Assembly: GCA_937974645.1 (NCBI GenBank)
Contig: CALJVH010000030.1
Coordinates: 1-35,790, forward strand
Reading direction: 5' to 3'
Length of the DNA stretch: 35,790 bases
DNA from: an uncultured archaeon
GTDB lineage: Archaea; Thermoproteota; Nitrososphaeria_A; Caldarchaeales; Wolframiiraptoraceae
The translations under genes and the position numbers were made by a program. Position 1 is the stretch's first letter; every line of letters begins with the position of its first letter. This document shows positions 7,989 through 11,272 of the stretch, one piece after another. The notes under the pieces were generated by a model. That model saw nothing but the letters and a program-made list of their open reading frames with translations. It did no database searches and was not told the DNA's origin.

Positions 7989-9275
7989 GATCAGTGAACC
8001 GATTTCCTCCGCAATTCTCCTGACGTCGACGTCGAATGTATAGTGGACTCTCGTGAAGTTCTTCCTGAACTCTATCACCCGCCTCCTCACCTCTGATGAG
8101 TCTTCTCGACCCTTCACGACCCTGTAAATGAGCCCCGCCACTTCTATCATGTCGTCCTCTCTCATTCCGATCCTCGTAACCTCTTGGACGCCTATCCTTA
8201 TCCCGGATGGGTTCTCGATGTCGCTGGGCCCATCCCATGGCAGTATATTCTTGTTTACGATTATGTTCGCCTCCTCTAGGGCCTTGGCACACTTCGCTCC
8301 GCCGCCATCGCCTCGGACGTCAAGGAGGACTTGATGCGTCTTCGTGAATCCCCATTTCTCGCCCAAGACCTTGAAGCCCCTTGCATGAAGCTCCTCAGCC
8401 AGGCGCCTCGAGTTCCGGAGTATCTGGCTCGCATACTCCTGCCCAAATTCCCTCATCTCCAGCGATGCCACGCCGATGGCGGCCAGCCTATGGAGATGGT
8501 GGTTCGAGACAAAGACGGGAAAAACGATCTTCGATGCCCTCTCGTATATCTCGTCGCTACTCGTTATTATCGCCCCACCCTGCGGACCTGGAAAAGTTTT
8601 GTGTGTCGAGGTCGTGATCACATCCGCTCCCTCCTCCAGCGGATTCGGGTAAACCCTGCCGGCTATGAGGCCGAGGACGTGTGCCGCGTCGTAGACCAGC
8701 TTTGCTCCGACCTCGCGGGCCGCCTCCGAAACCTCCTTAACCGGGTGCGGGAAGATGATGACGCTGGCTCCGAGAACTATAATCCTCGGGAACCTTTCCC
8801 TGATAATCTTGACGGCGCCATCCACGTCCATCATCATTTCCTCCGGTATTATCGGAAGCTCGATGGGCTTAATCCCGAGCCTCCCGAGTATCCCATATCG
8901 GGAGTGGCTGACGTGAGCTCCTCCGGGCAGCGGCAGAACTGCCGCCTCATCGCCGGACTTCGCCAAGCACGCGAATGCTGTCGCGTTGGCGATCGTGCCC
9001 GAAATCGGCCTAACATCAGAGTACTTTGCCGCGAATAGCTCCGCGAAGATCCTTGAAACCCTGACCTCGAGTTCGTCCACGTACCTCGTTCCTTGGTAGA
9101 AGCGCTTAAAAGGCAGACCCTCCGCATAGCGGTGCATGGCGTCGGAGAGGTAAACAGCATCAACAAGAGGCGATGTAACGTTCTCGGACGCTATCAGATT
9201 AATGCACTCACTCCTTCTCCAAACATTATGCCTCTTGGCCAGATCCAATATCTCCTTCAGCTCGTTATCATGCAT
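7980..9275 (-). CDS. glyA: Serine hydroxymethyltransferase
   Basis: INLIASENVTS, GLPFKRFYQGTRYVDE, VITTSTHKTFPGPQGG (PLP lysine). Start trimmed to MHDNELKEI. Confidence 0.95.
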   Translation of the reverse strand: MHDNELKEILDLAKRHNVWRRSECINLIASENVTSPLVDAVYLSDAMHRYAEGLPFKRFYQGTRYVDELEVRVSRIFAELFAAKYSDVRPISGTIANATAFACLAKSGDEAAVLPLPGGAHVSHSRYGILGRLGIKPIELPIIPEEMMMDVDGAVKIIRERFPRIIVLGASVIIFPHPVKEVSEAAREVGAKLVYDAAHVLGLIAGRVYPNPLEEGADVITTSTHKTFPGPQGGAIITSSDEIYERASKIVFPVFVSNHHLHRLAAIGVASLEMREFGQEYASQILRNSRRLAEELHARGFKVLGEKWGFTKTHQVLLDVRGDGGGAKCAKALEEANIIVNKNILPWDGPSDIENPSGIRIGVQEVTRIGMREDDMIEVAGLIYRVVKGREDSSEVRRRVIEFRKNFTRVHYTFDVDVRRIAEEIGSLILS

Positions 9276-9363
9276 GTCCTCTTTCAACCAACTTGAGCGC
9301 AGGAGATGTCTTAATAAGCTTTCAAGAGATATCTTAATAGGCCCTGATGTTCCGAGAAGTTCC

Positions 9364-10125
9364 ATGAACTCAGAAATACAGAGAGCTGCTAGAAAGCTGA
9401 GCCTCGATGTCGCGTTGCTCGCGAGCTTCAGCTCCTTATACATGGTTGTCTTGAAAATGCTTCCCGGAATACCGGCCATAGGCTTCCCCGGGGTAAAGAT
9501 CGAGATCGCCGTAGCTCTCTCCCCAATTTACGGCCTGATATTGGGCCACGTTCTCGGGCCCGCTTCGCTGCTCATCGGGACGCTCATGGCCATGACCCTT
9601 CTCCCGGGAAAATACACGCTCTTCAACTACGTGACAATATTCGCCGCGCCGCTCGGCGCGCTAACATCCTCCCTCACCTTCGATCAAGGGAGGATGCTCG
9701 GGCTCCCGAAATGGGTTTACGCCGTCGGAATCTACGGCGCGATGCTGGCCATCTGGTATGCGACGGACGTCGGGAGACTCACAGCTATCTTCACGATGTA
9801 CTATGTGGCCGCCGTGGTGCTGGTAATCGCCGGCGGGATCGCCGGCTCCTCGGGCGGGCGGATTGGGCGATCGACCCTCAAAATACTGGCTGGATGTGCT
9901 TCAGGAATCTTCGCCGATCACTTTTACGGCAGCCTTGCGGCGATAATAGTCTTCAGGCACATGCTTGGATCATTTGATCCGGAGGCCATGGCGGCCTGGT
10001 ACTTGGCCGCGATCCCAGTGGTGGGTATTGAGAGGGGGCTCATGATCGTCTTCTCGTTCGCCGTGGCATTCAACCTCTATCTCCTCCTCAGGAAGTCGAG
10101 GTATCTCAGGGCGAGGGTGGAGTAG
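9364..10125 (+). CDS. Integral membrane protein resembling an ECF transporter S component
   Basis: MNSEIQRAARKLSLDVALLASFSSLYMVVLKMLPGIPAIGFPGVKIEIAVALSPIYGLILGHVLGPASLLIGTLMA; several TM helices in ECF-S style. Start trimmed to ATG 9364, divergent from glyA. Confidence 0.6.
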   Translation: MNSEIQRAARKLSLDVALLASFSSLYMVVLKMLPGIPAIGFPGVKIEIAVALSPIYGLILGHVLGPASLLIGTLMAMTLLPGKYTLFNYVTIFAAPLGALTSSLTFDQGRMLGLPKWVYAVGIYGAMLAIWYATDVGRLTAIFTMYYVAAVVLVIAGGIAGSSGGRIGRSTLKILAGCASGIFADHFYGSLAAIIVFRHMLGSFDPEAMAAWYLAAIPVVGIERGLMIVFSFAVAFNLYLLLRKSRYLRARVE

Positions 10126-11149: not shown

Positions 11150-11202
11150 AGTAGAATATGCGCCATAAATCTTAAATCAGGAGTGATGGGAAGACATTTT
11201 AG

Positions 11203-11252
11203 ATGATGACCGCCCGCATCAGCTGAGTTGTGATGATGGATCAACCAGCTGA
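11203..11252 (+). ncRNA. C/D box guide sRNA
   Basis: C box ATGATGA (11203-11209), 13-nt guide, D' CTGA (11223-11226), 3-nt spacer, C' GTGATGA (11230-11236), 12-nt guide TGGATCAACCAG, D CTGA (11249-11252). Intergenic, with a TATA-like AT-rich stretch ~25-30 nt upstream. Confidence 0.85.
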
Positions 11253-11272
11253 AGTATAACACAATGGGCTAC

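Follow-up and report, generated by a model that had tools for sequence, protein, structure and literature searches.

The 50-nt element at positions 11203-11252 on the forward strand of the window (the whole stretch of DNA analysed here, 35,790 nt) very probably encodes, as a standalone gene, an archaeal C/D box sRNA with two guides; together with L7Ae, Nop5 and fibrillarin this RNA would attach to nascent 16S rRNA at two sites far apart. From 5' to 3' it consists of box C (ATGATGA, 11203-11209), a 13-nt D' guide (11210-11222), box D' (CTGA, 11223-11226), the spacer GTT, box C' (GTGATGA, 11230-11236), a 12-nt D guide (11237-11248) and box D (CTGA, 11249-11252), and reads in full ATGATGA-CCGCCCGCATCAG-CTGA-GTT-GTGATGA-TGGATCAACCAG-CTGA. 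The boxes lie exactly where the original prediction placed them, with its 13-, 3- and 12-nt spacings, and agree with the layout of C/D sRNAs (RUGAUGA boxes C and C', CUGA boxes D and D', guides within about 10-13 nt). No other strict C/D'/C'/D match occurs in the window on either strand. The element sits in a 205-bp intergenic region flanked by an MTHFR-like gene and a TldD/PmbA gene, and 23 nt before box C is a TATA-like sequence, AAATCTTAAATCA (11167-11179, forward strand), that may serve as the sRNA promoter. A sigma-70 promoter scan was set aside as not relevant to archaea. Elsewhere in the window, positions 9202-10125 (forward strand) hold a 307-aa ORF that is hydrophobic by eye and gave no Pfam match.

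The host is a Candidatus Wolframiiraptor-like MAG (Caldarchaeales, syn. Aigarchaeota) of 0.99 Mb, 82% complete, in 40 contigs of which the window is contig 30, and it encodes both fibrillarin and Nop5. Its 16S and 23S genes are on separate contigs (C22 and C12). The 16S gene (L001, G000:C22:40330-41997, reverse strand) is 1,668 nt long and appears to include an insert, possibly an intron, of about 175 nt; that of W. allenii (G001) measures 1,976 nt.

The host's own 16S begins CGACTCCGGTTGATCCTGCC (...CUCCGGUUGAUCCUG; CTCCGGTTGATCCTG), and the D guide forms nine contiguous Watson-Crick pairs with it (+3 to +11) at GGUUGAUCC, with an A.C mismatch at +2 and a G-C pair at +1. The complementarity to the extreme 5' end of 16S that was originally proposed is thus present, but it spans 9 Watson-Crick pairs and not 12, because the proposal had assumed a 5' end of CUGGUUGAUCCA and the host's own gene reads CTCCGGTTGATCCTG instead. 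W. allenii has CCGG where the window genome has CCAG, and there the D guide pairs at 11 positions. The chance that a shuffled D guide matches the 16S equally well is 1%. Opposite the guide's +5 base stands the first U of GGUU, so that the target first predicted is unchanged on the host's own 16S; we take this residue to be about U13 in E. coli numbering. In Thermus thermophilus 16S, U13 takes part in a triple whose other members are U20 and A915 (PMC3278836) and, given the numbering as about U13, the D target would belong to this central-pseudoknot triple.

The D' guide had been left without a recognised target, yet its portion GCCCGCATC pairs through nine contiguous Watson-Crick bases with GATGCGGGC in the host's 16S, with the U of GAUG opposite +5 and mismatches at +1 and +2. 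This site lies within the segment GAUGCGGGC, between h24 and h25, about 770 nt from the D target, and its +5 residue is presumably about U820 (E. coli numbering). Both guides were compared with the host's own 16S, 23S and tRNAs, as proposed with the original prediction, and comparable targets were found in 16S alone. The best 23S matches comprised 8 (D) and 7 (D') pairs, and longer matches around tRNA genes fell in locus flanks or on the antisense strand, outside the transcribed tRNA bodies. Among the host's rRNAs only the 16S thus offers each guide at least nine consecutive Watson-Crick pairs including the +5 base, the criterion for guide-target pairing in PMC4644070.

The reading that we favour is that an sRNP containing L7Ae, Nop5 and fibrillarin would assemble on the sRNA, with the D guide binding the 16S 5' end at GGUUGAUCC and the D' guide binding GAUGCGGGC. 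The predicted 2'-O-methyl groups would fall on U13 and on about U820, and methylation of both by the sRNP is the most likely mechanism. We infer that the gene is transcribed, that the RNP forms and methylates, and that a simultaneous hold on both segments may assist the timing or course of 16S core folding, as suggested for sR15 and sR17 of Nanoarchaeum equitans.

The 5'-end guide is not confined to the host. A looser D-guide pattern found 19 places in 18 genomes, among the matches listed, in 300 genomes of the phylum, and the reversed control gave one match. A broader scan of 84,980 genomes (species) with the pattern TGATGA-N0-3-GGATCAACC-NN-CTGA returned 31 places in archaea and 16 in bacteria. 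A spacer of exactly 1 nt is seen in 30 of the 31 archaeal places versus 1 of the 16 bacterial ones (Fisher p=3e-10), and because of this exact register we regard the archaeal matches, as a group, as real guides. By their record titles they span Thermococcus, Desulfurococcales, Sulfolobales, Bathyarchaeota, Culexarchaeum, Methanomethylicota and Caldarchaeales. This recurrence in the same register suggests that the sRNA may both mark the ribosome core and help to fold it.

In several of these lineages the 5'-end guide is coupled to a second guide with a plausible 16S target. Partner guides were scored against usable 16S sequences by counting pairs, with G-U at 0.4. Partners for the U820 site were found in Wolframiiraptor, in G011 (score 9, on the 16S of G020) and in G008 (8.4, tied with another site). 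In a Thermococci locus (L103) the two guides stand in swapped order; its second guide scores 9.4 at U820 on the window genome's 16S and slightly better (9.8, one G-U) at another site of Desulfurococcaceae 16S, the targets of Thermococcus second guides having been derived from the 16S of other archaea. Partners directed to h27, at about G902, occur in Culexarchaeum (10, own 16S) and in two Bathyarchaeota (10, on Culexarchaeum 16S); partners at the edge of h19, at about 564, occur in Pyrodictiaceae (L119, 11) and Desulfurococcales (L108, 9.8), both scored on Desulfurococcaceae 16S; and a further partner (L101) lies at about 569 (8.4, own 16S). The small-subunit core hub termed 'Domain A' consists of h1, h2, h3, h19, h27 and h28 (PMC4753503), and because it includes h19 and h27 the 564, 569 and 902 sites would be in or at it, with U820 just outside. 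The original prediction holds for the 5'-end guide itself but missed its recurrence across Archaea with other central-core guides.

These couplings bear on a different emphasis, which we consider possible but unlikely, namely that the sRNA is mainly a folding chaperone whose guides, pending release, hold the 16S 5' end either close to or away from a central segment, with methylation secondary, as in a U3-like RNA. The repeated pairing of the 5'-end guide with h27, h19 or 820-segment guides in different lineages speaks for it, as do the apparent coupling of the same two sites in reversed order in the Thermococci locus, the place of U13 within the U13-U20-A915 triple, and the similar roles that PMC4644070 proposes for other distant double guides. 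Against it, the +5 register is kept in the guides, as methylation would predict, and in many lineages the partner guide has a weak, other or no clear 16S target (G014, G016, G020, G045, L096, L102, L107, L109, L113 and L116, and likewise the Thermococcus group L093/L106/L126).

The comparison with U3 snoRNA can be drawn further. Like the element in the window, U3 is a C/D-class RNA with complementarity to the start of small-subunit rRNA, in the central pseudoknot. It binds there in 18S and may also contact a second, distant segment on the pseudoknot's 3' side (PMC4340053). Box B/C and an extended 5' region carrying box A/A' are features of U3, and no methylating activity is known for it (PMC8162545). 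The element in the window differs in being a 50-nt canonical methylation-type double guide that lacks the elements defining U3; assignment as a U3 snoRNA was rejected, as neither the box A/A' 5' region nor box B/C was found, and the resemblance would be one of function only. Reviews describe U3-like sRNAs as absent or unknown in archaea. Our tentative proposal, offered with low confidence, is that a recurrent, possibly convergent class of archaeal double guides clamps the start of 16S to its central core, at h27, h19 or the 820 segment, as a functional counterpart of U3 in formation of the central pseudoknot. If this is true, the recurring clamp would do part of the job of U3 in archaea. A guide for the 16S 5' end whose register is the same from Thermococci to Caldarchaeales, with partner guides that often point to sites around the central pseudoknot, is a testable candidate for how archaea deal with this fold, which is universal; cultivation of W. 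gerlachensis is reported (PMC9246946), and homologues of the sR14 type are found in Thermococcus genomes.

The double-guide C/D sRNA is itself a known kind of archaeal RNA, to which the sequence of the element adds a new instance. It shares the C/D'/C'/D order and spacing, the two guides and the at least nine Watson-Crick pairs including +5 described in PMC4644070; most double guides have targets within about 100 nt of each other, in contrast to the wide separation found here. That paper proposes N. equitans sR15 and sR17, which are likewise distant 16S double guides, as folding aids, but their targets are helices 28 and 30 and not the 16S 5' end. The 16S 5' end does not appear among the distant target pairs of its Table 3. 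Four Thermococcus/Thermococci loci with the same 5'-end guide reach the gathering score of the Pyrococcus/Thermococcus family sR14 (RF01145), at 51.6-59.4 bits against a threshold of 38, with their guides in the order opposite to that of the window element; the second guide of the Thermococci locus L103 resembles the U820 guide. Given this match, an earlier prediction of the 16S 5'-end site would be unsurprising and is possible, our coverage being the open-licence literature. The window element itself was rejected as an sR14 member, since its hit of 15.7 bits is partial and misplaced (11226-11260) and falls below the gathering score. In cmscan no Rfam family reached its gathering score in the window; at relaxed E-values the element matched the archaeal C/D sRNA families sR2 (28.4 bits) and sR5 (27.3 bits) (both E=1.1e-4).

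Within the family, the sRNA with both guides is present in seven of eight same-genus genomes, mostly with shared neighbours: MTHFR upstream and TldD downstream in G000-G004, and TldD downstream also in G005 and G006. In other genera, G008, G010, G011 and G013 carry both guides. The sRNA itself is strongly conserved while the flanks diverge, as is the TATA-like sequence, which is invariant in three species at 23-24 nt before box C and has a related form, AAATTTTAAATCA, in G003. Pairing with the host's own 16S and conservation of the boxes in relatives, the two points of sequence on which the original prediction could have failed, are thus both found. The guide edges vary freely among relatives, and every change at inner positions +4 to +9 (D'+8 in G004 and in G010/G013, D+9 in G002, D+6 in G005) turns a Watson-Crick pair into G-U. 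These changes are mild evidence for guide function, because transitions are common. The 16S target sites are nearly invariant among the relatives; compensatory covariation is therefore uninformative, and the G-U-preserving guide changes are the only ones of this kind observed.

It is from this conservation that the D' target assignment draws its weight, as shuffled guides of the GC-rich D' composition reach a 9-pair 16S match 10% of the time and the match alone is not rare. That figure, together with the Geocrenenecus relatives G014, G016 and G020, which share the D guide and have a different second guide with weak 16S matches, would suit a reading in which function is confined to the D guide, the D' match to 16S having arisen by chance and the second guide drifting. 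We judge this improbable, as the D' core CGCATC is retained in 11 genomes of the family, the D' guide of the congener G003 (TAGCCCGCATCGT) pairs at 13 of 13 positions of the D' site, and the inner guide changes preserve pairing as G-U. That the element is a chance or decayed C/D-like sequence, unexpressed, as its intergenic location might allow, is most improbable in view of the absence of strict matches from 300 Markov-resampled windows, the conservation against diverging flanks and the register of the 5'-end guide across archaeal lineages.

The sole congener with no match to the sRNA is G007. Its 16S (L166, G007:C23) reads ACGATGTGGGC at the D' target, and the other same-genus 16S sequences examined have ACGATGCGGGC; the altered target fits the missing match, which is suggestive only. 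Model matches in G034 and G028 (E 0.004-0.006) were discounted as chance-like. The model also picked up another C/D sRNA-like element, GGATGATGATGGCCGCAGTCCCTGATCTTGTGATGAGAGCCCGATAGTCTGA, in G004 (L161, G004:C17:73157-73210, reverse strand), and in G006 a further C/D-like element, ATGATGAAGGTTTCTAGTAGCGGAATAGATGACGAGACGTCAGGACGCTGA (L005, 29-80), precedes the sRNA homologue by about 310 nt.
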